From a virus, in the IMG/VR virus record IMGVR_UViG_3300009034_000181, positions 1 through 27,561 of that record: a stretch of 27,561 nucleotides of DNA. One strand, 5' to 3'. Positions within the stretch are counted from its first letter, which is position 1, and each line of letters starts with the position of its first letter. The position numbers and the translations under genes are program-made. Positions 2,468 through 22,700 of this stretch are shown in pieces. The notes under the pieces are model-generated. The model made no database searches. It was not told where the DNA came from and was given only the letters and a program-made list of their open reading frames with translations.

Positions 2468-4441
2468 TTATTCCTCAGGATTTAAGCCGACAGCATGCCG
2501 AATTTGCTTTACGAACTCCTGTGGACCCCAGCTCCAGCTACGCACAGCCATCTTAGGTGGCAAGATCTTTATGATGCTTTCGCGCAGGTTTTGATGTCTC
2601 TTCTTCTCAGTCTCAGTTTCCTTCTTAGCAGAGTTGATGATTCCTTCTTGCTTCACAAGTTCTTTTCTTAGCTCAACAAGTTCTTTAGTTTCAGATTCAG
2701 GAGTTTCCTTCTCAAGTTTGACGCACTGGCTTAAATCGGAATCCCACTTCTCTTCTCCGATCCTACATCCGTGACTGTCAACTTTTGCATCTTCAGGTGG
2801 CACTTGCTCCGCCATTGGATGTCCTGTAAGTCCGTAGAGGTTCGCAAGTAACCTCCCAAATTTCGCTAGTTCGTCATTCATCGCTGCTATTTTCTGTTCG
2901 ACAGTGACTGGACCAACAGGAACCATAGGTTGCGCCGGAATTTGTTCCTGCAACAGTTTAACAGATGCTTCTACGAATGAGTCTGTAGCTCCCACCTCTC
3001 TGAGTCGTTTCATCAATTCATTTCCAACATCTATCTTTCCTCTTGTCTCAATGTATTCTCGAATCCTGCCTTCTCCCATATTTGCAGGTTGTGGTTCGCT
3101 GATCTCGTCTATCAATCCGAATTCTAAAGCCTCTTTTGCTGACAACCAATAGTCTGTCTTCTTCGTCAGTTCGTTGATCTCTTCAACTGATTTTCCTGTG
3201 CGCTCTGCATAGATTTGGTTCAGCATGTTGTTGAGTTTTCGTAGTTCCTCAGTTCTCTCTTCCAACTTTGTTGTCTCTCCCCACTGCATGGTAGAGACTT
3301 CATGGATGAGGAATCGCGTGTGAGGAGTTGCTTTTCGCTCTGTTCCCGCTTGGAGAATGATCGAGCCCATGCTAGCTGCTAAACCTCTCGCTTCACAAAT
3401 GACTTCGATTCCTTGATCTCTCAGAGTTTTGATGGTGTCAAAGACTAATAGCCCGTCATAAACGCCTCCGCCAACACTGTTCAATATTATGTGGATTGGG
3501 TCCTTGTTTTCTTTAGCTAGAAACTCAAGGCGCCGAGCAGCTCGCTGACAAGCTTCTTCATACACTTTTCCATGGAAGATTATGGTTCTGTCTTCTAAGA
3601 GGGACATTTCTAGCTGTTCTTCAAGCGACAGTGATTTCTTAGCATCGTCATTTATGCCTTCTTTGATCTTTGACATGGCTCTTGTTTTCAATCCGGGTAT
3701 GATCTGACTTTCCCAGAGTTGAACGGTGGTTGAAGGATCGCCTGGCTTCATCTGTCTCAAGAAGGAGATGTGTCGCGCTTCAAATCCGAAAGGTGCTACC
3801 CCATTCACGAACTTTAAGCCTCCGCCGGGTACCATCCAATCGAACTCTATGCTTGTCTTCTTGATCTCTCCGTTTCGGACAATCTCTAAGACTTTGTCCT
3901 CTTTTGGAATGACAGCGTACTTCAATTCTCCGTCTGCATACTTTGTAGCTATTACTTTCCAACCTTCAATAGGAATCGTGTGGTCAAGATAAGGTGTCGT
4001 ACCAACATAGCCGGGCGCTACTCTTGCAAGTTCTTCTTCAAGATACACTCTCACATGAGGAAATTCGTGTGGATGGTAAGTCTTGACAGGATGAATTGCC
4101 CTTCCTGTTATTATTGGTCTGACTTCTTTAAGTTCGTCTGGAAGCCATTCCAAATCGGGGCTCTCATCTAATTCACCGATCCAGACAATCTTCTCTTCGA
4201 GTTTCTTGAGTGCCTCTTTTTCAGTTTTAGCTTTCACTGCTCCACACCAAGCTTCAGGATTGGTTATGCTCTTGTCTGCCTTAGCGTGTACCATGCAAGC
4301 GTTCCAGTCTTTGAAACCTCCAAAAGGTTCGCCTAACAGACCCGCTTCTTTTATTGCTTCCACGTATTTCTTAAGAGATTCTGGAGTATAGTCTGTTGGA
4401 AGAGGAACAACTTTAGGAACTTTAGGTTCTTCTTTAGACAA
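2468..4441 (-). CDS. Head-maturation polyprotein: XkdF/prohead-like protease, ClpP-like protease and scaffold
   Basis: With the TTG start at 4441 the protein has 657 residues. Residues 43-70 hold a two-Cys module (WNACM ... AWCGAV). Residues 85-235 resemble phage prohead proteases of the XkdF/S78 kind, with H154 in 'YLDH' and S197 in 'TSIEFDW' as candidate catalytic residues. Residues 280-450 are a ClpP-like serine protease with a full apparent triad: S357 in 'LAASMGS', H380 in 'FLIHEVS' and D430 in 'TDYWLSAKEA'. Residues 520-657 are helical and charged like a scaffold, and contain a second two-Cys motif (HGCRIGEEKWDSDLSQC). An ATG at 4531 would overlap the upstream gene by 89 bp. TTG at 4441 follows that stop by one base and has GGAGA eight bases upstream, so I prefer it. 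Its expected role is to process capsid and scaffold during head assembly. Confidence 0.82.
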   Translation of the reverse strand: MSKEEPKVPKVVPLPTDYTPESLKKYVEAIKEAGLLGEPFGGFKDWNACMVHAKADKSITNPEAWCGAVKAKTEKEALKKLEEKIVWIGELDESPDLEWLPDELKEVRPIITGRAIHPVKTYHPHEFPHVRVYLEEELARVAPGYVGTTPYLDHTIPIEGWKVIATKYADGELKYAVIPKEDKVLEIVRNGEIKKTSIEFDWMVPGGGLKFVNGVAPFGFEARHISFLRQMKPGDPSTTVQLWESQIIPGLKTRAMSKIKEGINDDAKKSLSLEEQLEMSLLEDRTIIFHGKVYEEACQRAARRLEFLAKENKDPIHIILNSVGGGVYDGLLVFDTIKTLRDQGIEVICEARGLAASMGSIILQAGTERKATPHTRFLIHEVSTMQWGETTKLEERTEELRKLNNMLNQIYAERTGKSVEEINELTKKTDYWLSAKEALEFGLIDEISEPQPANMGEGRIREYIETRGKIDVGNELMKRLREVGATDSFVEASVKLLQEQIPAQPMVPVGPVTVEQKIAAMNDELAKFGRLLANLYGLTGHPMAEQVPPEDAKVDSHGCRIGEEKWDSDLSQCVKLEKETPESETKELVELRKELVKQEGIINSAKKETETEKKRHQNLRESIIKILPPKMAVRSWSWGPQEFVKQIRHAVGLNPEE

Positions 4442-4442
4442 C

Positions 4443-4961
4443 TTAGTCTTCTCCAAGTGTCCCGAAAAGGAATTCACTGTACTCTCTTTTGACCTTCTTT
4501 GCTGTCTGTGGAAATCCAACTTTGTATTCATCCCATGTTAGAACGCTGTAGTTGAAGTATCGTTTTCCCTCAGGCTTTCCAAGCGGTAGGATTACTAAAA
4601 CTTGTCCAACAAGAGTTCCAAGTTTTGTAAGTCTCTCTCTTATCTGCTTGGCAAGCACTTGATGTCCAAGAGATACCATCGCTGAATTTCCTTTCTTGTC
4701 AATGACATCCATGACTTCCCATGGACCCTCTTTTGTACTGATGATTCTTGGATCTGCTACGACTTTGCACACGAAAGATTTGCCAACTTCGAACTCAACA
4801 GTTTTTGCACGTCTTCGACTTTCTGCTATCTTCATCAGTTCTTTATCGTCTACTTCTGCCTGCATCCAATCTTCTTTTGCTTCACGATAGACTACATAAG
4901 ACCCTGTTACTACGGTTTCTTCGTCTTGGGTTTGGGTTTTTCCCGTTTCTGTTTTTTCCAT
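4443..4961 (-). CDS. Unknown protein, possible OB-fold domain
   Basis: A 172-residue protein. After a low-complexity hydrophilic start, residues 50-150 alternate beta-strand segments with a helix: 'KTVEFEVGKSFVCKVVADPR', 'GPWEVMDVIDKKGNSAMVSL', a helix near 'LAKQIRERLTKL', then 'GQVLVILPLG...KRYFNYSV'. This order resembles OB-fold single-strand DNA-binding proteins, but no decisive motif is present and the operon around it is for head assembly. I chose the ATG at 4961 because GGGTGA lies seven bases upstream. An upstream in-frame ATG at 4982 lacks this signal. The gene ends one base before the preferred start of the protease gene, suggesting translational coupling. Confidence 0.6.
   Translation of the reverse strand: MEKTETGKTQTQDEETVVTGSYVVYREAKEDWMQAEVDDKELMKIAESRRRAKTVEFEVGKSFVCKVVADPRIISTKEGPWEVMDVIDKKGNSAMVSLGHQVLAKQIRERLTKLGTLVGQVLVILPLGKPEGKRYFNYSVLTWDEYKVGFPQTAKKVKREYSEFLFGTLGED
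4450..4454 (-). promoter_or_regulatory. Ribosome binding site deciding a TTG start
   Basis: GGAGA on the minus strand lies inside the end of the upstream gene, eight bases before TTG at 4441. It makes that codon a better start for the protease polyprotein than the unpreceded ATG 90 bases upstream. Confidence 0.5.
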
Positions 4962-5685: not shown

Positions 5686-7014
5686 TTATTCCTCCGCGGG
5701 AGAAACAGGTTTTTCAAGAGGTTTTTCTTCAGGCTTCCCAGTTGGGATTGGTTTTTCGCCGGGAAGGAATTTCTCGGTTTTAGGTTCAGCAAACGGTAAA
5801 ACTTCGGGTGGTAACGTTTCCTGAATGTCTACACCAATATTGATCAAAATCTTTCTCCATTCTTCCGTTGTCATCCCTTTAGCCTCCCAAGTTCGGAACA
5901 ACAATGGAAGGAGATCTTCGACTTTAGGACGTTCCGGTAAACGCCAATTCAGTCTAACTTGAGCCTCAAACGGTTCAAGTCCAGCTTCTAAAACCCAGCG
6001 ATCAAACATGTAAGTTTCATCCATCCGCTTAAGGTATCGTTGCAGGCTGTAAATCTTCCGCTCCCCAAAAGCGACAGCTGCTTTAGCTGATGCTTCGGTA
6101 AAGCCGGGTGACGTAAAGAGTTTGGGAAGAGGAGTTTCCAAAGCAAGGAAATAACTGTTCCATAACGTCTCAACGTAAAAATCTAATCCCCTCATCCGCT
6201 CAGGAATAAGTTGAATAACTTTTGTGTCGGGTACATCCTTTCTCTTAGGATTAATTACAATCCGTCTTCCTTCTGATTTCTTGAGCCCTTCAATCTTACC
6301 GTAATATTCTTGTAATTTCTTGTCCGAAATTCCGCCTAAAACCCACAATTCATTATAAGCACCCATGTTCTCAATTTGATTTACCATAGAACGCTGAATT
6401 CTAGCTTTTATTTGGGCAAATGACGGACGCTCTCCATCACCGGTGTCTAGAGGCGTGCATAACGTTTGAAGAATGCCAACTCCTAAACCTGTCTTTCCTA
6501 TTCGGTTAAAAGAATACCAAAGTAGCTCGTCTGCTGAAAACTTCTCTCTATAAACAGTTACAACATTCAGGAGTTTCTGAATTCTTGCGGTTGTGTCCCA
6601 TTCAAAATTGCTTATGATGGCGGGAGAAATGCGAACTAACTCCTTTCCTGTTTCTCCTTTCCATACAAAACTGTTCCCGTAACCAACAAGGTCTCGACAT
6701 ACTTCTTGATGAAGTTCGTCTACACCATGTTCTTTACACTTTTCATCTACGATTTCTTTAGCCGTCTTTCCTTCAAGAGATTTAGTCTTATAATTAGGGT
6801 TCATTACTGTTTGAAACCCCATTCCAACAGCGATGTCTGTTATGAAGTCGATAGCCGCTCTTGTATCAGGATCTCCACGATGAACATTATTTAGTTCTGC
6901 CCATGTTACTTCAGGATATGTCCTTCCACCGTAAGGTTTAGCTCCTATGAAGAGTGAACCTTCTTTCAGTGTACCCGTTAAGATGTCTTTCCAACGTTTC
7001 AAATACTCACTCAC
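5686..7014 (-). CDS. Portal protein
   Basis: A 442-residue protein, first gene of the minus-strand operon. It shows features of portal proteins: 'DPDTRAAIDFITDIAVGMGF' near the N-terminus, 'VGYGNSFVWKGETGKELVRI' and 'LNVVTVYREKFSADELLWYSF' in the wing region, and a long stem/crown helix pair including 'VETLWNSYFLALETPLPKLF' and 'GFTEASAKAAVAFGERKIYSL'. The last 40 residues are Pro/Glu/Lys-rich and probably disordered. Two in-frame GTG codons lie at 7020 and 7014. AGGTGGT ends eight bases before 7014, so I prefer that one. It would form the DNA gate at the capsid vertex and dock the terminase. Confidence 0.83.
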   Translation of the reverse strand: MSEYLKRWKDILTGTLKEGSLFIGAKPYGGRTYPEVTWAELNNVHRGDPDTRAAIDFITDIAVGMGFQTVMNPNYKTKSLEGKTAKEIVDEKCKEHGVDELHQEVCRDLVGYGNSFVWKGETGKELVRISPAIISNFEWDTTARIQKLLNVVTVYREKFSADELLWYSFNRIGKTGLGVGILQTLCTPLDTGDGERPSFAQIKARIQRSMVNQIENMGAYNELWVLGGISDKKLQEYYGKIEGLKKSEGRRIVINPKRKDVPDTKVIQLIPERMRGLDFYVETLWNSYFLALETPLPKLFTSPGFTEASAKAAVAFGERKIYSLQRYLKRMDETYMFDRWVLEAGLEPFEAQVRLNWRLPERPKVEDLLPLLFRTWEAKGMTTEEWRKILINIGVDIQETLPPEVLPFAEPKTEKFLPGEKPIPTGKPEEKPLEKPVSPAEE

Positions 7015-12907: not shown

Positions 12908-13041
12908 AAGTCTATTTTTGCAAGGAATGTTACTTGTTGTCTCCCTCTACGGCACGCACGTATCTAACAAAAGAAGCCCTGCTTGCCGATCATCCAGTAT
13001 TAAAAGATTATCCAGAGTTAATAGGGGAAAAGGAAGTGTAA
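12904..13041 (+). CDS. 45-residue protein (GTG start) before queE
   Basis: GTG at 12904 overlaps the previous stop by four bases and AAGGTGAAAA lies just upstream. The frame closes with TAA at 13039, three bases before the queE ATG. It has one CxxC-like pair (FCKEC) and a helical C-terminal half (LTKEALLADHPVLKDYPELI). It fills the space that a spurious upstream extension of queE would occupy. Function unknown. Confidence 0.5.
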   Translation: MKVYFCKECYLLSPSTARTYLTKEALLADHPVLKDYPELIGEKEV

Positions 13042-13043
13042 AA

Positions 13044-13721
13044 ATGCAAGTAAACGAAATCTTCTACAGCGTGCAAGGTGAAGGATTAAACATCGGTATG
13101 CCACAGATCTTCATTCGCCTGTTCGGCTGCAACCTGCGCTGTCCATGGTGTGACTCGAAATTCAGCTATGAAGGAGACAACTTTGAAACCTTGAATGTTC
13201 GCCAGATCATGGAAAGAATTGGAAAATATCCGTGCAAGGCGGTTTCGATCACAGGTGGAGAACCGCTTGTGCAAAAGGAAGAACTACTCAAACTTGTGAA
13301 ACAGTTGAAAGCTGATGGTTACTACGTCCAACTACACACTAACGGGACAATATGGGCACCTGAAATCTTTAAACTCTGTGACTTCATCTCGATGGACATG
13401 AAAGCGCCAAGTGCAGGAATGAAGAGTAACAGGGATTTCATGCAGGATTTATGGGAACTTCCCAACGCTTACGGTGATCGCATTAAGTTTGAAGTCAAAG
13501 TTGTCGTGCAGACAGGTCAAGACCTAGCGTTTGCTTTACGGACAGTTTATACAAAATGTCCAACCACACTGATCGTCCAACCTTGCGTGGTAAACCCAGA
13601 AAAGGAAATTCCTGAATTGCAGAAGTTGATAGAGAAAATCTTGACGTTCCGAGCACAAGACATTCGAATCCTTCCGCAACTACAGAAACTTGTCTATCCA
13701 AAATATTGGAGAGGAAAGTAA
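13044..13721 (+). CDS. queE: 7-carboxy-7-deazaguanine synthase (radical SAM)
   Basis: A 225-residue radical SAM enzyme. It converts 6-carboxytetrahydropterin to 7-carboxy-7-deazaguanine (CDG), the step that forms the 7-deaza ring. Visible features: 'IFYSVQGEG' at the N-terminus, the cluster motif CxxxCxxC as C29, C33 and C36 in 'CNLRCPWCDS', and 'TGGEPL' (residues 70-75) for SAM binding. Length is normal for QueE. The frame is open 126 bases upstream, but the ATG at 13044 matches the family N-terminus and follows AGGAAGTG, so the extension is rejected. It begins the modification cluster, with a 48-residue gene and queD following without gaps. Confidence 0.92.
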   Translation: MQVNEIFYSVQGEGLNIGMPQIFIRLFGCNLRCPWCDSKFSYEGDNFETLNVRQIMERIGKYPCKAVSITGGEPLVQKEELLKLVKQLKADGYYVQLHTNGTIWAPEIFKLCDFISMDMKAPSAGMKSNRDFMQDLWELPNAYGDRIKFEVKVVVQTGQDLAFALRTVYTKCPTTLIVQPCVVNPEKEIPELQKLIEKILTFRAQDIRILPQLQKLVYPKYWRGK

Positions 13722-13868
13722 TTGGGTTGTGAAGAGTGCGCACATCTCAGAATTGAACCAAGAGCTGTTCCGCCATGGGAATGTCACCTTCCAAATCTTA
13801 AGAATCGACCAAGGATAATTGAACGGAAACGATACAAGAAAGGATGCGAATATAGAAGTGAAAAATAA
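13722..13868 (+). CDS. 48-residue Cys-rich protein between queE and queD
   Basis: TTG at 13722 immediately follows the queE stop, with GAGGAAAG as ribosome binding site, and the stop shares one base with the queD ATG. The product has four cysteines ('CEEC' at 3-6, 'WECHL' at 21, 'KKGCEY' at 42) plus histidines, enough for one zinc site, and a basic middle. Its exact fit between two pathway genes suggests that it is translated with them. It may be a small nucleic-acid-binding or accessory factor; function unknown. Confidence 0.55.
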   Translation: MGCEECAHLRIEPRAVPPWECHLPNLKNRPRIIERKRYKKGCEYRSEK

Positions 13869-14242
13869 TGGAAATAACACTCATAGTTAGAGACCATTTC
13901 GAAGCGGCACACTTCATTCCAAAGCATAAGAAATGCGGGAAGATGCACGGACACAGCTACAAAGTAGAAGTGGAATTCATAGGAAAAATTCCATACGCCA
14001 AAACAATGCTGACAGACTTTGCTTATCTCAAGAGAATCCTAGCTAAAGTCTTGTCCCGTCTTGACCATAAAACCTTAAACGATGAACTTGCTGTTCCAAC
14101 AACTGCTGAGTTCATAGCGCGTTGGATTTACATGCAGATAAGAGAGAAGTTTGAGAGGGAAGGAACCAAGAAAATGCAAATCCTCAGCGTAACAGTTTGG
14201 GAAACAGACAAATACGGAGCAAGGTATGAGGGAGAAGAATGA
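13868..14242 (+). CDS. queD: 6-carboxytetrahydropterin synthase
   Basis: A 124-residue member of the PTPS/QueD family. It converts 7,8-dihydroneopterin triphosphate to 6-carboxytetrahydropterin. Zinc ligands are visible as H15 ('FEAAHF'), H27 and H29 ('MHGHSY'); the catalytic Cys is C23 ('KKCGKMHGH'). 'LDHKTLND' (65-72), E81 in 'PTTAEF' and E112 in 'VWET' complete the active site. Length is typical. The ATG shares a base with the preceding stop, and the next gene starts at the ATGA overlap at its end, so translation is coupled. Confidence 0.92.
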   Translation: MEITLIVRDHFEAAHFIPKHKKCGKMHGHSYKVEVEFIGKIPYAKTMLTDFAYLKRILAKVLSRLDHKTLNDELAVPTTAEFIARWIYMQIREKFEREGTKKMQILSVTVWETDKYGARYEGEE

Positions 14243-15072
14243 GAGCAGAATTGGAATATTACAGAGACATGTTACCGACACCTGTAAAGTATCTACCAAC
14301 ATACGGTTGTTACCTCAAGTGTGAGTTTCTGTTACCCAGCGGTTCACACAAAGACAGAGAGACAGTGTATTTGATTAAGTCTGGGAAAGAGAAAGGTCAA
14401 GATTGCGTGATCGCTACAAGTGGAAATGCAGGAATATCACTTGCATACTATCTAAAGAAGAAAGCGCATGTTGTTGTTCCTGAAACCTGCAGTTCAAAGA
14501 AGCAGGAAATCATACGCGGTTACGATGCAGACTTAATTATCTGGGGAAAAAGCTATGCTGAAGCGTGGATTGAAGCTGAAAAACTGGCAAAATGGAAGAG
14601 ATGGAGAAACGTGTCTGCAGGAGTTGAATCCCTCAGGTACGTGGGACACATGGGAATACCAAGAGAATTAAGTGGTGAAGGCAACTTTGATGTCATTATT
14701 GTTCCCGGCGGGAACCACACTTTAGCGTATGGAATAGCTGAAGGAGCAAAGATTTACATGCCACACACTCAGATAGTATCGGTTGTTTTGCCAAATCACC
14801 CATTCTTTATGAAGGATTCAAGAGGAATAGAATTGACACCTTCCCAGATTGCAGGTTACGAGTCAATAGCAGTAGGAAAGGAAGGCGTAGAATGGAGGTT
14901 CACAGAAAACAAGATGGTAGACTGTGCAACATGCTCTGTTGAATCTTTAGACAGAGTCAGGAAGAGACATGAGAACACAGCTCTTGATCTAGTTGTCTGT
15001 CTAGCTTTAGAAGTGTCTAAATTACTTAGTGGAAGAAAGAAAGTAGTAATAGGAACGGGATTAAGAAGATGA
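14239..15072 (+). CDS. Threonine-synthase-like PLP enzyme (fold type II)
   Basis: A 277-residue PLP-dependent enzyme. K38 in 'SGSHKDRE' matches the PLP lysine of the threonine synthase motif S-F-K-D-R. 'ATSGNAGISLAYY' (S61-G65) is the substrate-carboxylate loop, 'IVPGGNHTLAYG' (G157-N159) the PLP-phosphate loop, and 'VIGTGLRR' the C-terminal segment like the 'TGhGlK' end of threonine synthases. It is shorter than cellular threonine synthase (usually 350 or more residues) and lacks the N-terminal zinc ribbon and swivel region. It starts on the queD stop (ATGA) and ends on the queC start, so it is locked into the modification cluster. PLP chemistry is not part of the known preQ0 route. Substrate unknown; it could make or attach an amino-acid-like group. 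Confidence 0.85.
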   Translation: MRAELEYYRDMLPTPVKYLPTYGCYLKCEFLLPSGSHKDRETVYLIKSGKEKGQDCVIATSGNAGISLAYYLKKKAHVVVPETCSSKKQEIIRGYDADLIIWGKSYAEAWIEAEKLAKWKRWRNVSAGVESLRYVGHMGIPRELSGEGNFDVIIVPGGNHTLAYGIAEGAKIYMPHTQIVSVVLPNHPFFMKDSRGIELTPSQIAGYESIAVGKEGVEWRFTENKMVDCATCSVESLDRVRKRHENTALDLVVCLALEVSKLLSGRKKVVIGTGLRR

Positions 15073-15839
15073 TGCCACATCCATACTTTGGAAATCCATA
15101 CTACATACCGCGATTCCTAATGGCAAGACCAGAAGTCGTAGTCTTAACATCGGGCGGAATTGACAGTTGCGCTTTATGTGCATATCTGAAGCGGGAACGA
15201 TGGGACGTTTATCCTCTATTTGTGGATTATGGACAGTTAGGAAGCGCTGAAGAAGAACTGGCAGTTCGCACATTTTTGCAAGAAATAAATTTAAACGCAA
15301 AAATCGTCAGAGTGCGCAATCCAGAATTAAAAATCCCAATGACAGGACACGGAAGACAACCACAGAGTACAGATGAGGATTTCAAAGAGACAAAAGATCT
15401 CGACTGGGTTCCACATCGCAACTTCGTATTTCTGGTTCTAGCAGCTCAGTATGCAAGCTTGATCGGTACAAGAACGTTAGCTATCGGTTCACACAAAGAA
15501 GAATGGTGGGAGCAATTTCCAGATTCTAAACGGGAAACGTTAGATCAAATAGCGAAAGCTTTAACGTTATCCGAAGGAAAAGGAAAGAAATGGGAAATAC
15601 TGACGCCTTTCGTTGATAGAGGATGGTACAAATGGGATGTCGTTAAATGGTGTGCAAAGAATAAATTACCACTCAAATACACTTACACTTGCTTCAAAGG
15701 AAGACCCAAACTTAAGAGAAAGACTGAAGACGTTAGAAAGAAGTTGAAACACTGTGGTCTTTGCAGAGGATGTTACGACAGGAAAGCGGTCTTTATACGA
15801 GCAAAAGTTTCTGATCCAACCATGTATGAGGTGGAATAA
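15069..15839 (+). CDS. queC: 7-cyano-7-deazaguanine (preQ0) synthase
   Basis: A 256-residue PP-loop ATPase. It uses ATP and ammonia to turn CDG into preQ0. The PP-loop is 'SGGIDS' at residues 28-33. 'GSHKEEWWEQFPDSKRE' is the family substrate loop. The zinc knuckle is C208 with C229, C232 and C235 ('HCGLCRGCYDRK'). The first 17 residues (MMPHPYFGNPYYIPRFL) are longer than usual. An ATG at 15120 would give the standard start, but 15069 keeps the ATGA coupling with the previous gene. There is no glutamine-amidotransferase fusion, so it should stop at preQ0. Confidence 0.92.
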   Translation: MMPHPYFGNPYYIPRFLMARPEVVVLTSGGIDSCALCAYLKRERWDVYPLFVDYGQLGSAEEELAVRTFLQEINLNAKIVRVRNPELKIPMTGHGRQPQSTDEDFKETKDLDWVPHRNFVFLVLAAQYASLIGTRTLAIGSHKEEWWEQFPDSKRETLDQIAKALTLSEGKGKKWEILTPFVDRGWYKWDVVKWCAKNKLPLKYTYTCFKGRPKLKRKTEDVRKKLKHCGLCRGCYDRKAVFIRAKVSDPTMYEVE

Positions 15840-16937
15840 ATGAAACTCTACTTCGCTGTCGGCGCAAATTGGTACGCTTACAGAGCACTGCGATCAGTGG
15901 GAGGGAAGCGCATGCTCATCTCGTTTGCTTATGTTCCCCGCCAAGTGCTCTCTGGGAAGGAAACATTCTACAAGTTTTACGGAGAAGACATCGACCCATT
16001 CATAGACAGCGGAGCATACACAGTAAAACACACCGGCAAAGAAGTCAAATTAGAAGATTACATTGATTTCTTGAAACAGCACAACTTTCCCGTCTACGCG
16101 AACCTAGACGTTATCGGAAGCTGGGAAAAAACACTGAAAAACCAACAGTTAATGGAAAAAGAAGGGTTAAAACCGTTACCCGTATGGCACGAAAGAGATC
16201 CTTTTGAACAGTTGAAAGCTTACGTTGGAAGTTACGACTACGTAGCTCTAGGATTCAAGAGTAGAAGTAGCAAGGAAAGGGCGAACCTGTCAGCTACAAT
16301 ATTTGACCAATATCCCGACACGAAATTCCACATGTTCGCTATCACCCAACCCGAAGTTATGATGCAGTATCCCTTCTATTCAGTAGACAGCAGTACATGG
16401 TTAAATTCGATCAAGTATGGAGCACTACTGACACCATGGGGATACGTTCACGTAGCAAGGGAGAGACTAGGTGGAAAAAGACATGTTCGGAACATGACTA
16501 GGTTACAGAAGATAAAATGGGAAACCTATTTTGAAGGTTTCGGATTCAAGCTAGAAGACTTACTAGGAGACGACTACACAGTAAGGGCAGCTTACAGCGC
16601 AAAATTCTTCATAGCGTTAGAGACGGCTATCAACAACTATCCACTACCCAAGAAAACCCGTAGGATGTTAGACTCATTCTATAGGGAAAAGAAGATAGAC
16701 ACGATCAGTTACAGAATTTTAGAGTATGCACGCTTACACAAGACGTTCCATCAAGACGAAATTGCATTGTTAGCAGCTAACGAAGAATGGAATTGTCAGA
16801 TAGAAACGATCTTCCGCACGTTAAGAAAGCTTGCAGAAGATGAGAACGCAAGAGTAAGGCATGTAGGTGGGGGATATTGGAAATATCTGCTTCCACATGA
16901 CGACAAGACGGAGAGTTTAACACAATGGTTCGGATAA
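15840..16937 (+). CDS. dpdA: DNA 7-deazaguanine transglycosylase (phage DpdA-like)
   Basis: A 365-residue protein related to tRNA-guanine transglycosylases. D56 in 'FIDSGAYT' corresponds to the proton-shuttling Asp of the 'DSGGFQ' motif. D90 ('ANLDVIGSW') and D183 ('YSVDSSTWLN') lie where the base-binding Asp and the nucleophile are expected. The zinc motif of tRNA enzymes (CxCxxC...H) is absent, which marks the viral DpdA group. Residues 260-365 look like a helical/winged-helix DNA-binding part. It should replace G by preQ0 in viral DNA. The order queE-queD-PLP-queC-dpdA-folE is continuous. The next gene overlaps its end by 13 bases. Confidence 0.85.
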   Translation: MKLYFAVGANWYAYRALRSVGGKRMLISFAYVPRQVLSGKETFYKFYGEDIDPFIDSGAYTVKHTGKEVKLEDYIDFLKQHNFPVYANLDVIGSWEKTLKNQQLMEKEGLKPLPVWHERDPFEQLKAYVGSYDYVALGFKSRSSKERANLSATIFDQYPDTKFHMFAITQPEVMMQYPFYSVDSSTWLNSIKYGALLTPWGYVHVARERLGGKRHVRNMTRLQKIKWETYFEGFGFKLEDLLGDDYTVRAAYSAKFFIALETAINNYPLPKKTRRMLDSFYREKKIDTISYRILEYARLHKTFHQDEIALLAANEEWNCQIETIFRTLRKLAEDENARVRHVGGGYWKYLLPHDDKTESLTQWFG

Positions 16938-19591
16938 AAATTCCAACAAAACTTGGAGTGGCACTTGAAGACATGTTCAAAGACCTAGGAGCAAGTACAG
17001 AAGTTGTAGAACATACACCCGCAAGGTACATTAACGCATTATTGGAACTATTAGACGGATACGAACAAGACCCAGAAGAAGTATTAAAAACATTCGATCC
17101 GCCAAAACAGGGTGTAGTCGTTTATGAAACATGCGAGTTTTACAGCCTTTGCGAGCATCACATGCTACCATTCTTCGGAAGGGTTCATATAGGATACAGA
17201 TCAAGAACGAAGTGCATAGGACTCAGCAAATTAGCCCGTTTAGTAGACGTTTATGCTCATCGGTTACATTTGAATTGGAAAAAGTGGGCTAACAACGTAT
17301 TGCGAGAAAGCAGAACAGACATGAAGTTCTTTGCTCGCAAGTATTTCAACATGGGGCTAGCAGTCATTCCTATGGAGATCACTTGGAGCGAAGAAAAGAA
17401 GAAATGGGTGAAAATACCGCTTGTTGATAAGTGGGCACAGTGGAAAGAGACAGCGCAGACAGAAGAAGAATTCAATAATCAGCGATGGGACGAAGCAAAC
17501 GGTTTTGCAGTAATTCTTGGAAAGACAAAAGACGGACCATACTTAGGAGTAATAGATTACGACATCAAGGAAATAAGTGAAGAAGTCAAGGAAAAAGGAC
17601 TAAAGATCCTAAAAACCTTTCCCGAGACAAAGGTTGAGAAAACCGTTTCAAACGGGTTACATTACATCTACTTCTCTCTCGTTTCTGTTAAAGAACGCCA
17701 CACAGAGTTCCATGACACTTACGGTCTTGAACTTTTCGGTTCTGGACACCTAGTAGTCATGGCGCCAAGTAAGGGTTATTCAGTGTTAAAAGCGGACGCA
17801 CTGACAGTTAAAGACTTAACAAGTTTGTTTCTGAGTAGTATACCTAAGAAGAAGAAAAAGAGGGAAAGAAGGAGAAGGAAAAAAGAGGAGAAGAAGGAGA
17901 AGGTGCGTCCATGTGTGGAAGCTTTACTAGCCAGTAGCACAAATCTGCCTCACGATCACCGCTTAATAATAGCTTTTGAGTACTTAAATATTGGAATGAA
18001 GCTAGCAGATGTAGTCGCACTATTCAATAAACAGAAGGATTTCGATGAGAAGACAACAGCCAAAGCAGTGAAGCAGGCAATCAAAGCTGAGTATCAACCA
18101 TACGGCGAAGAAAGGCTCAAAGCTCTAATGACCGAATTAGGATTATGCTCACCAGAATGCAAAGAGTACGGAAAAGAGGTTGAGTACACGCCTGCAGCAG
18201 TCTTAAAAGACGGAACAATATGCGAGCAAGGGTATGACGGTGAAGACGTCTACTATATCGTCTACAATCCTGAGACCAAAGAGATCACAACAAGAGCGCA
18301 TATTGAGTTGGAAGATAAAGTCTACATGCCGATAATGAACGAAGACGTAAAAACTGGGCAAGTATTATTTCCTGTAGAGGCAATCGAGTATGAAACAGAC
18401 GCAAAATTAAGTAAGGAAATCAGAGATTATTTGAACCGATGGCATGAACAACTTGATCCGGTACAACGAGAGTTAGACGTGAACTACATAAAGGAAACAT
18501 GGATCAAAGATTTGCTTCCGCAAATAGGTTACAGAAGAGACTTAGCAAAATTTGGACACGGAAAGTCAACGTTCTTAGAGGTGTTAGGTTCAATTTGTTA
18601 TCGTCCATTCAACGTTGCAGGTTGCAGTACAGAAGCGGCAATACGCAGAACGTTCCACATGTGGAAAGGAACAGCAGTAATAGATGAAGCAGACTTTGCA
18701 AACAGTGATCTCTTCGCGGTTGTGATCAAGATTTTAAACATCGGATTCGACAGCAAACTTGGCTACTATCGGTGTTGTGACGATAAAGACCCCAAGAAAG
18801 TCCTTTCATTCTACGTCTACGGACCAAAAGTCATAGGGACAAGAGAAAGATATAGGGATCTCGCTCTTGAATCTCGTTGTCTCACCTTTTTCGGGAGGAT
18901 GAACATTCATCCGATGCCATTATTCAGAATGAAGCGATGGAAAGCAGAAGTCATGGAATTACAGGGTAAAATGCTCCTTTGGCGGTTCCGAAACTACCAT
19001 AAATTGCTTGAAAAGATGGATACATTAGAAGACATCAGTTCAAAAGAGAAGATTTACGGGCATGAATTAGACGTTTCAAGCAGAGTCAAACAGGTTGTTT
19101 TGCCACTTCTCTTGATCACAGAAGAAAAAGAGGTAATAAGAGGCTTAGTAAACTTTGCCCGCGCTTTCAACAGTAACCTCCAAAATTTGGATGAAGAGAA
19201 AGGATGGGAAGAACAACTTGAATTAGCCATCCAAAATCTGCAAGAGGAAGGATTGTTGAAGCATACCAAGGATATTAAGCATACTATAGGAGGGGGCAGA
19301 TTTTACGAAATTTATTTGGTAGACGCTGCTGAAAGTCTAGGAATCGAGGAAGTCAAAGACAGAACGTACTGGTCGAGAGGATTAGCGAAATACCTAAGAA
19401 AAAGGACTGATTTCCCCATCTTGAAAGGATACAAAAACAGGTCATACGTTCTTATACCCGCTTTCTTCGTTGAGAGTGTATTAAAAAAGCACGCAAGCGC
19501 TCCATACGATGCTTCAGATGCTTCGCATGCTTCAAAGCAAACAGAAGAGAAAGTTGATTGGGAGGAAGAAATAAGTGATTCTGATAGCTAA
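16925..19591 (+). CDS. Fusion: N-terminal half of GTP cyclohydrolase I + primase-polymerase + AAA+/SF3-like helicase
   Basis: An 888-residue protein. Residues 1-117 match the first half of FolE: 'TPARYINALLELLDGYEQDP', 'CEFYSLCEHHMLPFFG' with Zn ligands C76 and H79, 'GLSKLARLVDVYAHRL'. The second half of FolE, with its essential H-x-C-M zinc/catalytic segment, is missing. From M133 ('FFARKYFNMGLAVIPM') it continues as a bifunctional primase-polymerase with D211 and D213 ('VIDYDI'), H246 ('NGLHYIYF') and 'GSGHLVVMAPS'. A Lys/Arg-rich linker (about 310-330), a Cys pair ('LCSPEC') and a helicase domain follow, with P-loop 'FGHGKST', Walker B 'AVIDEADF' and a 'LESRCLTF' arginine motif. The P-loop has Ala instead of the first Gly. 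The C-terminus carries 9-bp repeat codons. It should prime and unwind at the viral fork. Confidence 0.82.
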   Translation: MVRIKIPTKLGVALEDMFKDLGASTEVVEHTPARYINALLELLDGYEQDPEEVLKTFDPPKQGVVVYETCEFYSLCEHHMLPFFGRVHIGYRSRTKCIGLSKLARLVDVYAHRLHLNWKKWANNVLRESRTDMKFFARKYFNMGLAVIPMEITWSEEKKKWVKIPLVDKWAQWKETAQTEEEFNNQRWDEANGFAVILGKTKDGPYLGVIDYDIKEISEEVKEKGLKILKTFPETKVEKTVSNGLHYIYFSLVSVKERHTEFHDTYGLELFGSGHLVVMAPSKGYSVLKADALTVKDLTSLFLSSIPKKKKKRERRRRKKEEKKEKVRPCVEALLASSTNLPHDHRLIIAFEYLNIGMKLADVVALFNKQKDFDEKTTAKAVKQAIKAEYQPYGEERLKALMTELGLCSPECKEYGKEVEYTPAAVLKDGTICEQGYDGEDVYYIVYNPETKEITTRAHIELEDKVYMPIMNEDVKTGQVLFPVEAIEYETDAKLSKEIRDYLNRWHEQLDPVQRELDVNYIKETWIKDLLPQIGYRRDLAKFGHGKSTFLEVLGSICYRPFNVAGCSTEAAIRRTFHMWKGTAVIDEADFANSDLFAVVIKILNIGFDSKLGYYRCCDDKDPKKVLSFYVYGPKVIGTRERYRDLALESRCLTFFGRMNIHPMPLFRMKRWKAEVMELQGKMLLWRFRNYHKLLEKMDTLEDISSKEKIYGHELDVSSRVKQVVLPLLLITEEKEVIRGLVNFARAFNSNLQNLDEEKGWEEQLELAIQNLQEEGLLKHTKDIKHTIGGGRFYEIYLVDAAESLGIEEVKDRTYWSRGLAKYLRKRTDFPILKGYKNRSYVLIPAFFVESVLKKHASAPYDASDASHASKQTEEKVDWEEEISDSDS
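19257..19292 (+). repeat. Degenerate repeat-family match inside the helicase domain
   Basis: GAAGCATACC and TTAAGCATAC lie 18 bases apart (two units of 9) and encode KHTKDIKHT. They resemble the KHTKHTKHS-encoding units at 27184. Degenerate and possibly coincidental, though the spacing fits the family period. Confidence 0.35.
19508..19534 (+). repeat. Three 9-bp repeats in the primase C-terminus
   Basis: GATGCTTCA, GATGCTTCG and CATGCTTCA in tandem encode DASDASHAS just before the acidic C-terminus of the primase-helicase. They are the reverse complement of the AAGCAT-type units at 5582-5672 and 27184-27544. Confidence 0.8.
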
Positions 19592-21746
19592 GAGTTTCAA
19601 TTCGGCGAAATACGGCACGTTAGTCGAACTTTGGCACGTTGGAAGTCAGAAAGTCAAGGTAATTAATCGCCCATTTGATCCATTCTACCTCTCATTAGTG
19701 AAGCTTGTGAACTCTCAACCTATTCAAGTCACATTCATAGAAGACCTCAAGAAACACACAGTTTACAAGAAAGAATTCAGAGACACACGCGAATTAAAGG
19801 CGGCAGTAGATAAATCATACACTTTCTTAGATGACATTCCATATATCCAACAGGTAGCAATAAAGAAAGGATTCAAAGTGTCAAGTCCTTTACCTTCACA
19901 CTACGCTTTCGACACCGAGTTTAATAAGGGGCGGTTAATAGCGTGTGGTTGGGGGACAGGAAAACATAGAGAAGTCTTCACAGGAAATCCAAGTACAATA
20001 CTCTGCAACTTAAATGATGTGATCCAAACTACAAATCCTGACATTCTCGACACTTATTGGGGTTCATACTTTGACGTTGGACGCCTACTTAAAGTCTCAA
20101 GGGAAACAAGAATACCTCTAACTTGGGGAAGAGACGGTTCTGAACCTTACATTTGGAGACGCGGTTACTCTCATGGTCCACATAGAGGCTACAAAAATCA
20201 GGTGCAAATTGCAGGTAGGATACATTTTGACGTCTACAACGAAGTAGAGATGGATCAGACATTATCAGGAATAAAGAATAAACGCCTGCAAACTGTTGCA
20301 GAGTGGTTCGGCTTTGGAAAAGCTTCAAAAATTGATCACTCTCGTCTACTTGATTACGGGATGGAAGTAGTTAAGAGTGAGTGTTCAGAAGACGTCAGAA
20401 AAACATGGTTGTTAAGTGAACATTATCTAAAAAATCTCTTTGTTCTCGCTGATGACTACCTCTATCTCCCACTTAATCTGTTAGTTGAACGTTCACCATC
20501 GCACATCCCAAACTACATCTACATGCGGGAATACGACAAATTAGGTGTAGTGTCAACCTGCTCAAACGCTGATCGCTACCGTGACTTCTTCGTGTGGCAA
20601 CGCAAGAGTTATGAAGGAGCTTTCGTGAAACTCTACAATCCCGGAATTTACACTGGTAATCTGAAAAAGATTGACTTCCGTTCTATGTATCCGTCAATAA
20701 TGGGTTGTTTCTTCCTTGATCCTTTAACTGTCGAGCTTCTACGAGTCAAGCATACAGATGAAGTCCCCAACTGGATTGTTCAGTTCAGAGGAGACGAGAC
20801 AGACATATACGATAAGAACCTTAGAGGAATCTTCACAGTCAGAATAAAGACTGAAGAAAGTGTGTCTCAACGCCTAATAAGACAATTCATGAGATGGAGA
20901 CAAGAAGTTAGAGAAGACAAATCATTGTCAGACACTGAGAAGAAGAGTAGACAGTGGGCAATCAAAGTTATGATGAACGCCATGTACGGGTATCACGGAA
21001 TGCGGTATGCAAGGTTAGGTTGCGCACCGATAGCAGCTTACGTCACAGCCATAGGAAGATGGTTTTTGCTGGAAACAATAAAGTATGTGGAACGAAAGAA
21101 GGTCGCAACGGAAAAGATTATTGAAGCGGACACAGACGGAGTATATATGGTGGGAAGAGATTATGCAAAAGAAGCGGAAGACTACATTAAGTCGTTGATT
21201 CCCTCCCGTTATGATTCTTCATTCATAAAGATAACAACTGACACTTATGATGGCGGAATCTTCTACGAAGAAAAAGGGTACGTCTTAAAGACTGGAGAGA
21301 GCCTAAAGTTTCATGGGAGCGGATTGGTAGGAAGACATCACCCTAAAATCTGCGATAAAGTCTTAGAAGAGACAGTTAACGGCGTGTTTGCAGGAAAGGA
21401 AATCAAAGATATCCTATGGAAGTACACAAAACTAAAGCGGTTCCCACCCGAAGATTTCATTATGACAGTCGAGTTGAGGAAACATCCTAACCAATACAAA
21501 GAAGGGACAATGCTTGGAAAAATGGTTAAACAACTAAGAAATGTCGAACTTGGCACTGAAATTCAGTATGTAAGAACAAAGAAGGGATTTAAACCAATAA
21601 CTGTAGTTGGATTCGGAGACAACTTAGATTACGACTATTATCGCGGGCGGATCGCTAAAGCTTTATCTCGAATCTTAAAACCCACAAAACGCTTATCAGT
21701 GAGCAGTATTGAGAAAATCATCAAAGAAGGGCAGATGGTGTTCTAA
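19575..21746 (+). CDS. polB: Family B DNA polymerase
   Basis: A 723-residue polymerase. Exonuclease motif I is 'AFDTEF' (D113, E115), with Exo II near 'DTYWGSYFDVGRL'. Polymerase motif A is 'DFRSMYPSIM' (D367), motif B 'KVMMNAMYGYHG', motif C 'EADTDGVYM' (D519, D521). The spacing between motifs A and B is about that of RNA-primed archaeal enzymes, leaving no room for the TPR2 insert of protein-primed polymerases. This agrees with the primase encoded just upstream. It starts with GTG at 19575, inside the last codons of the primase gene, behind GGAGGAAG. Proofreading and replicative synthesis are expected. Being viral, it must copy templates that contain 7-deazaguanine. Confidence 0.92.
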   Translation: MILIAKSFNSAKYGTLVELWHVGSQKVKVINRPFDPFYLSLVKLVNSQPIQVTFIEDLKKHTVYKKEFRDTRELKAAVDKSYTFLDDIPYIQQVAIKKGFKVSSPLPSHYAFDTEFNKGRLIACGWGTGKHREVFTGNPSTILCNLNDVIQTTNPDILDTYWGSYFDVGRLLKVSRETRIPLTWGRDGSEPYIWRRGYSHGPHRGYKNQVQIAGRIHFDVYNEVEMDQTLSGIKNKRLQTVAEWFGFGKASKIDHSRLLDYGMEVVKSECSEDVRKTWLLSEHYLKNLFVLADDYLYLPLNLLVERSPSHIPNYIYMREYDKLGVVSTCSNADRYRDFFVWQRKSYEGAFVKLYNPGIYTGNLKKIDFRSMYPSIMGCFFLDPLTVELLRVKHTDEVPNWIVQFRGDETDIYDKNLRGIFTVRIKTEESVSQRLIRQFMRWRQEVREDKSLSDTEKKSRQWAIKVMMNAMYGYHGMRYARLGCAPIAAYVTAIGRWFLLETIKYVERKKVATEKIIEADTDGVYMVGRDYAKEAEDYIKSLIPSRYDSSFIKITTDTYDGGIFYEEKGYVLKTGESLKFHGSGLVGRHHPKICDKVLEETVNGVFAGKEIKDILWKYTKLKRFPPEDFIMTVELRKHPNQYKEGTMLGKMVKQLRNVELGTEIQYVRTKKGFKPITVVGFGDNLDYDYYRGRIAKALSRILKPTKRLSVSSIEKIIKEGQMVF

Positions 21747-21747
21747 G

Positions 21748-22038
21748 ATGAAGGTTTTAAGAGAAGTAAGAGATTATTTAGATGAGCATAGTCGCGTACT
21801 GTTAAAATCCCTTAAGAGCAAGAAGAAAAGAAGAAGGTTTACGAGGGTAATGATCATAGACGCACTCTCAGCGGTTGTTTTTTGGGGTGTAGTCAACGCC
21901 CTTAAAGACATATTCATAGTTGGAATGCCTCTACAACAAGTTGCAGTAGCTGGAGCAACAGGGGCAATACTCACCTTGTCTTTAGGAGGAATTTACGGTC
22001 AGATATCAGACAGAATAAGGAGATGGACGAGATGTTAA
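21748..22038 (+). CDS. AlaE-like half-size membrane protein
   Basis: A 96-residue protein starting at the ATG at 21748, one base after the polB stop. After a basic N-terminus (residues 1-34) two hydrophobic segments carry a pattern I recognise from one repeat of the L-alanine exporter AlaE: 'DALSAVVFWGVVNALKDIFI', 'VGMPLQQ', then 'YGQISDRIRRW', matching the family's D-x-x-A-V-V ... V-V-N ... E-x-F ... G-M-x-x-x-Q ... Y-G-x-x-x-D. The cellular exporter has two such repeats in about 150 residues; here only one is present, so a dimer may form the full fold. Whether it transports alanine is unknown. A holin-like role is another possibility. Confidence 0.6.
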   Translation: MKVLREVRDYLDEHSRVLLKSLKSKKKRRRFTRVMIIDALSAVVFWGVVNALKDIFIVGMPLQQVAVAGATGAILTLSLGGIYGQISDRIRRWTRC

Positions 22039-22700
22039 GAGACAAAATGTTAAAAGTGACCCTCTATTTCAGGAGGATAAAAGGAAAATTATACCTAACA
22101 TTTGACTGTCCAAATGCGGAAGGAATAGAACACGGCTTACCAGCAAAAGAAGTGCTTGAGCTTATAAAGCAACAATTTAAAGGGAAAAAGAAGCCCTTCT
22201 ATGTCAGAGAGACCATCAAAAGAGTCATACGTTGGAAGAAGAAATTCAGATTCTACCTTGCAGGACCTATAAGTTGGGTTTCTGTAGAGGAAGCTGTAAC
22301 ATGGCGGGTGGACATGACAAAGTATCTTGAATCCATAGGACACGAAGCGGTTAATCCCCTAGCGAAATATCCTGTTCCAGCTGGAGAGAAGAAGAAAGTT
22401 GAAAAGTCAATAATGTGGGAAAAAGACGAAGAGGCAAGGGAGTATCTAAGAAGGAGAATAATGAATCCCGACATCGAGTTGTTGAAACAGTCAGACGGTA
22501 TCATCGCTTCTATACCGCGTTACAGCGTAGGAACATCAGCAGAATTAATGTATGCCTATCTTCACAACATGCCCGTCTATATCGTGACTGACATGCCCCG
22601 CAAGAAATGGAGTGGATGGTTCATGGGACTATCAACTTTAATCTTCACAAACTGGGACGATCTTAAGCGTTTTCTGAAATATATGAAAGAAGGAGTGTGA
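22023..22700 (+). CDS. Nucleoside 2-deoxyribosyltransferase-like protein
   Basis: A 225-residue protein. The N-terminal 70 residues are a small domain of unknown kind. Residues 75-200 fit the nucleoside 2-deoxyribosyltransferase/DUF4406 fold: 'FYLAGPISW' (77-85), a long helix, then 'DIELLKQSDGIIASI' and 'GTSAELMYAYLHNMPVYIV', where E174 is at the position of the catalytic Glu. Such enzymes exchange bases on deoxynucleosides or split nucleotides, and are frequent in viruses that use modified bases. The frame overlaps the previous gene by 16 bases. An ATG at 22032 has GGAG nine bases upstream and may be the real start. Confidence 0.72.
   Translation: MDEMLRDKMLKVTLYFRRIKGKLYLTFDCPNAEGIEHGLPAKEVLELIKQQFKGKKKPFYVRETIKRVIRWKKKFRFYLAGPISWVSVEEAVTWRVDMTKYLESIGHEAVNPLAKYPVPAGEKKKVEKSIMWEKDEEAREYLRRRIMNPDIELLKQSDGIIASIPRYSVGTSAELMYAYLHNMPVYIVTDMPRKKWSGWFMGLSTLIFTNWDDLKRFLKYMKEGV

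Follow-up and report, generated by a model that had tools for sequence, protein, structure and literature searches.

Half of a GTP cyclohydrolase I fused in frame to a viral primase most likely marks a loss rather than a new function

Why should the primase of a virus begin with the first half of a GTP cyclohydrolase I (FolE), and does the joined protein represent a gain of function or a loss? The window, by which we mean the whole 27,562-base record analysed here, encodes a terminase and a family B polymerase as well as a series of preQ0/7-deazaguanine genes, and comes from an uncultivated tailed virus. An earlier note on this DNA had described half of FolE joined in frame to the primase, and as sequence this fusion is real, since one open frame of 888 aa matches both Pfam domains. 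The frame is composed of the following parts, where L082 denotes the closest relative.

16925..19591, plus strand: whole fused open frame, comprising the FolE N-terminal part, a linker, a Prim-Pol domain and an ATPase
16925..17266, plus strand: FolE-derived segment, residues 1-114, up to VYAHRL, with C76, H78 and H79 kept (Pfam and PHROG matches)
17267..17320, plus strand: linker, residues 115-132 (HLNWKKWANNVLRESRTD), with no FolE signal and a low-confidence structure prediction
17321..17782, plus strand: Prim-Pol domain (Pfam PF09250) from M133, which corresponds to the TTG at which the L082 primase likely starts
18176..19180, plus strand: P-loop ATPase/helicase-like region, with FGHGKST at residue 543 and VIDEAD at residue 585

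The Pfam profile GTP_cyclohydroI aligns with residues 24-116 of the fused frame (E = 1.1e-28) and scores 100.4 bits against a family cut-off of 27, over positions 17-111 of its 179 only. To place the end of the FolE segment, 69 other viral FolE sequences were aligned with it and positions were looked up. Clear homology ends at L114, the last residue of VYAHRL (residues 109-114), and past this point the near-invariant Gln positions of FolE are His and Asn in the fused frame. The three residues C76, H78 and H79 are present as claimed earlier, while the FolE part had been drawn slightly too long (to residue 117) and the linker, which counts 18 residues, too short (15). The absence of the C-terminal half was correctly recognized: the H-x-C motif is missing from the fused frame, and no second match to FolE or FolE2 was found in the record, which is itself probably incomplete. 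The linker and the start of the Prim-Pol domain were also considered as a degenerate FolE C-terminal half, which was rejected given the missing motif and a Prim-Pol match that runs from the first profile position.

This match covers residues 137-286 (E = 9.6e-8, profile positions 1-144 of 158) and is a full-length one, with a score of 33.1 bits where the cut-off is 22.8, or of 37.3 bits when the part is tested apart. Sequence motifs of the family were located at residues 209-214 (VIDYDI, with D-x-D) and 242-250 (SNGLHYIYF, the H motif), which we take to be the catalytic acidic pair and the histidine motif, respectively. M133 aligns with the starts of two other Prim-Pol proteins. As judged from these alignments, the primase is complete from M133 and has not lost its start. 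The earlier proposal that a deletion took both the end of folE and the start of the primase is therefore borne out only in its first part.

No orthologue of the whole primase was found in viral contigs or plasmids, and the phage records yielded only weak matches, to MetMV and Rctr41k. The Prim-Pol part is 27% identical to the primase of Methanosarcina virus MetMV, and the ATPase part shares 29% identity with the ATPase of virus Rctr41k; unlike the window's protein, neither of these two viral proteins is preceded by a FolE segment. The ATPase part is also 31-34% identical to proteins in Chloroflexota genomes (L175-L185) of 1.0-2.1 Mb, which have several copies per genome and a different N-terminal part. 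Motif scans returned mostly chance matches, except for one MetMV-like contig and one Chloroflexota contig, the latter of which led to these Chloroflexota relatives. An internal deletion near the ATPase P-loop was dropped as a candidate, since the alignment with Rctr41k is gapless there.

To what extent the FolE half can still be an enzyme is indicated by its residues. Compared with GTP cyclohydrolase I (PF01227), it has the N-terminal part with the C-E-H-H motif and is approximately 50-52% identical to the intact FolE of L082, but it stops at profile position 111 of 179. When the half is aligned with E. coli FolE (residues counted without the initial Met), counterparts of Cys110, His112, His113, Lys136 and Arg139 are kept, whereas those of Gln151, Glu152, His179, Cys181 and Arg185 are missing. 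In E. coli FolE we take the cysteines to bind zinc, the Gln-Glu pair to bind GTP and His179 to be catalytic; accordingly, the first zinc Cys and its His are found in the FolE half, and the second zinc Cys, the Gln-Glu pair and the catalytic His are not.

FolE forms a decamer whose active sites each lie between three subunits, and its zinc site contains two conserved cysteines (PMC6718149). A structure was predicted for residues 1-330 from an alignment that held FolE rows only. Residues 8-113 were modelled with confidence as helices, one hairpin and one helix (block pLDDT ∼83-92), while the linker is unsure; beyond residue 116 the model is poor because the alignment had only FolE rows, and it thus carries no information on the Prim-Pol domain. 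The modelled half superimposes on the FolE structure 1wm9 with an rmsd of 2.9 over approximately 110 residues (Foldseek) and, in a second comparison, with a Z of 8.3 and an rmsd of 3.6 over 114 residues. It retains the N-terminal helices, the first hairpin and the first T-fold helix. Half a T-fold is thus encoded, and a normal catalytic pocket cannot form. By its sequence, the FolE half is most likely dead as a GTP cyclohydrolase. It nevertheless scores 122 bits, compared to 121 for the intact FolE of L082, so that long decay is not apparent, and either the event is recent or the half has been retained.

The fused frame lies directly behind genes of the 7-deazaguanine pathway and in front of the polymerase gene.

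12918..13721, plus strand: queE (phrog_2076, E = 3e-39)
13868..14242, plus strand: queD (PF01242, E = 9e-32)
15069..15839, plus strand: queC (PF06508, E = 7.6e-33)
15840..16937, plus strand: DpdA-like transglycosylase gene (phrog_887, E = 6e-49; 44% identical to L082), overlapping the fused frame by 13 nt
19575..21746, plus strand: family B DNA polymerase gene (PF00136, E = 1e-27; 61% identical to L082), its start overlapping the end of the fused frame

Viral 7-deazaguanine clusters comprising folE, queD, queE, queC and dpdA are known from Enterobacteria phage 9g and archaeal tailed viruses (PMC6884629, PMC8651126). The window resembles them in having queE, queD, queC and the DpdA-like gene in a row just before the folE remnant, and differs from them in that its folE is truncated and fused to a primase and in that a gene for a PLP-dependent enzyme stands between queD and queC. 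This gene (PF00291, E = 1.8e-30; 14239-15072) has no tblastn match in the L082 record. Known clusters do not all include folE, so that having only its N-terminal part is compatible with membership. A nucleoside 2-deoxyribosyltransferase-like gene, 57% identical to L082, was also observed at 22023-22700 in this virus with 7-deazaguanine genes. Elsewhere, at 2468-4531 on the minus strand, the window encodes a 687-aa protein, perhaps a prohead protease, in which a Clp-type protease domain (PF00574, E = 9.6e-40) is flanked by long regions.

QueD requires dihydroneopterin triphosphate, the precursor of the DNA modification that FolE makes from GTP. Given this need and the lack of any other FolE or FolE2 in the record, the host would reasonably be the likely source of the compound if the FolE half is dead. 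Viruses that rely on host steps of this pathway have been published (PMC6884629; HRTV-29 in PMC8651126). A search for TerL relatives among viral and genome contigs returned none.

The earlier note had suggested related viral contigs as a check, and L082 is informative in this respect. It has the same gene order as the window, and its complete folE of 196 aa is followed by a separate primase gene and then by the polymerase. Its terminase is 68% identical to that of the window, the protein at the portal position 60%, QueD 56% and QueE 47%. The two primases have no tblastn match and are the only large replication gene without one; their Prim-Pol domains share weak pairwise similarity (25%), and their C-terminal parts differ, PriCT_1 being found in L082 only and the ATPase in the window. 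From the conserved flanks and the unmatched primases it follows that the segment between the middle of folE and the start of the polymerase gene is the exchanged or the fastest-changing part. Measured from the R-L at which the FolE part ends, the primase starts after 54 nt in the window, compared to 262 nt in L082. The two records also differ in queC: the window has this gene and a broken folE, while the 24-kb record of L082 (G001) contains queE, queD, the DpdA-like gene and the complete folE with no match to queC.

In L082, the folE stop codon (6896-6898) is followed 4 nt further on by the most likely primase start, a TTG at 6903, and the primase ribosome site (AAGGAG, –8.2 kcal/mol) lies within the last folE codons. 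The distance from the start to the conserved I-P agrees exactly between L082, counted from this TTG, and the window, counted from M133. However, the ribosome site of M133 in the window, at –3.0 kcal/mol, is not above chance (random median –2.9 kcal/mol), compared to –6.9 kcal/mol for the folE start. The window's primase is therefore probably translated from the folE start, as a fusion with the dead FolE half. This is not proof against internal initiation at M133, as weak ribosome sites are also found in several other genes of the window. The loss of the folE end may have taken the primase ribosome site with it, or the gene may have arrived without one, and the in-frame join would have let the gene survive.

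Among the best 80 viral FolE loci, 79 continue past the window's break into a normal C-terminal half, and none of the 80 has FolE fused downstream to a replication protein. The exception is L034, an unrelated record in which folE (3066-3491) stops at profile position 115 of 179, unfused and with no remainder in the record. This truncated folE clusters with queD and queE and is followed by a ParB/GmrSD-like gene instead of a primase. Neither our literature search nor the relatives searched yielded another fusion of half a FolE with a primase.

How did the joined gene arise? We lean towards the reading that it is a recombination scar, left when the primase was exchanged with a left breakpoint inside folE, the enzyme half being dead. 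The ancestor would have had a complete folE directly before a separate primase gene, as L082 still has. Non-homologous recombination may then have swapped the primase gene for a different Prim-Pol/ATPase gene, with the left breakpoint after codon 114 of folE. The same event would have removed the folE stop codon and the ribosome-binding site that L082 has in its last folE codons, and since the product was in frame, translation of the primase would begin at the folE start codon and yield a fusion protein. The FolE half, its cyclohydrolase activity presumably lost, is probably just carried along, and QueD, QueE, QueC and the DpdA-like enzyme could remain functional provided that dihydroneopterin triphosphate is delivered by the host. 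Such an exchange describes the event better, since among the large replication genes that of the primase alone has no tblastn match in L082, and one exchange would account for both the truncation and the different primase. On the other hand, the fusion is seen in one genome only, and the L082 primase is not orthologous, so that the order of events is not fixed. The undecayed FolE half also fits retention for a function, and the weak ribosome sites of other window genes lessen the weight of the one at M133.

Alternatively, the virus may always have had its own primase beside folE and simply have lost approximately 200 nt, that is the end of folE and a few intergenic bases, the primases differing for an older, separate reason. 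Both the gene order common to L082 and the window and the shorter distance between the FolE part and the primase would fit such a deletion, which accounts for the truncation only; a second event would have to be assumed for the dissimilarity to L082 that is confined to the primase, and we regard this scenario as unlikely. It is quite unlikely that the junction is an assembly or library artefact, with two real pieces misjoined and a complete folE and a separate primase in the actual virus. There is a single record only, and the junction did not recur in a codon-wise scan of viral contigs, a search in which near-identical records may be missing. However, no repeat longer than 12 nt, which is the chance level, occurs near the junction, the frame is open across the join, and the DpdA-like and polymerase genes on either side are the neighbours expected from L082. 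L034 moreover provides a second case of a truncated folE.

The FolE half could also have been kept as a working domain, for example for oligomerization or docking, either by binding the FolE of the host or by linking the primase with the supply of modified bases. It is well conserved and confidently modelled, and L034 has retained a FolE that ends only a few residues away from the window's break. Yet the catalytic and GTP-binding residues are gone, the fusion does not recur in the other 80 viral loci, the truncated FolE of L034 stands alone, and half a T-fold would hardly assemble in the manner of FolE, which makes this reading very unlikely. Least of all do we expect its specific form, in which the half docks onto host FolE or self-assembles, thereby coupling a replication enzyme to where the modified-base precursor is made. 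The earlier note had suggested, as one option, a coupling of precursor synthesis with replication through the fusion; we found no evidence of it, and a new bifunctional enzyme is unlikely.

With L034 and the window, there are two viral preQ0 clusters whose folE breaks off at almost the same position, a hint that folE is the step that can be dispensed with where dihydroneopterin triphosphate is available from the host. The fusion of half a FolE to a primase thus most likely marks a loss and not a new function. It illustrates how, in a compact viral operon where a gene has its ribosome site within the preceding gene, gene exchange can join the remnant of a metabolic enzyme to a replication protein.
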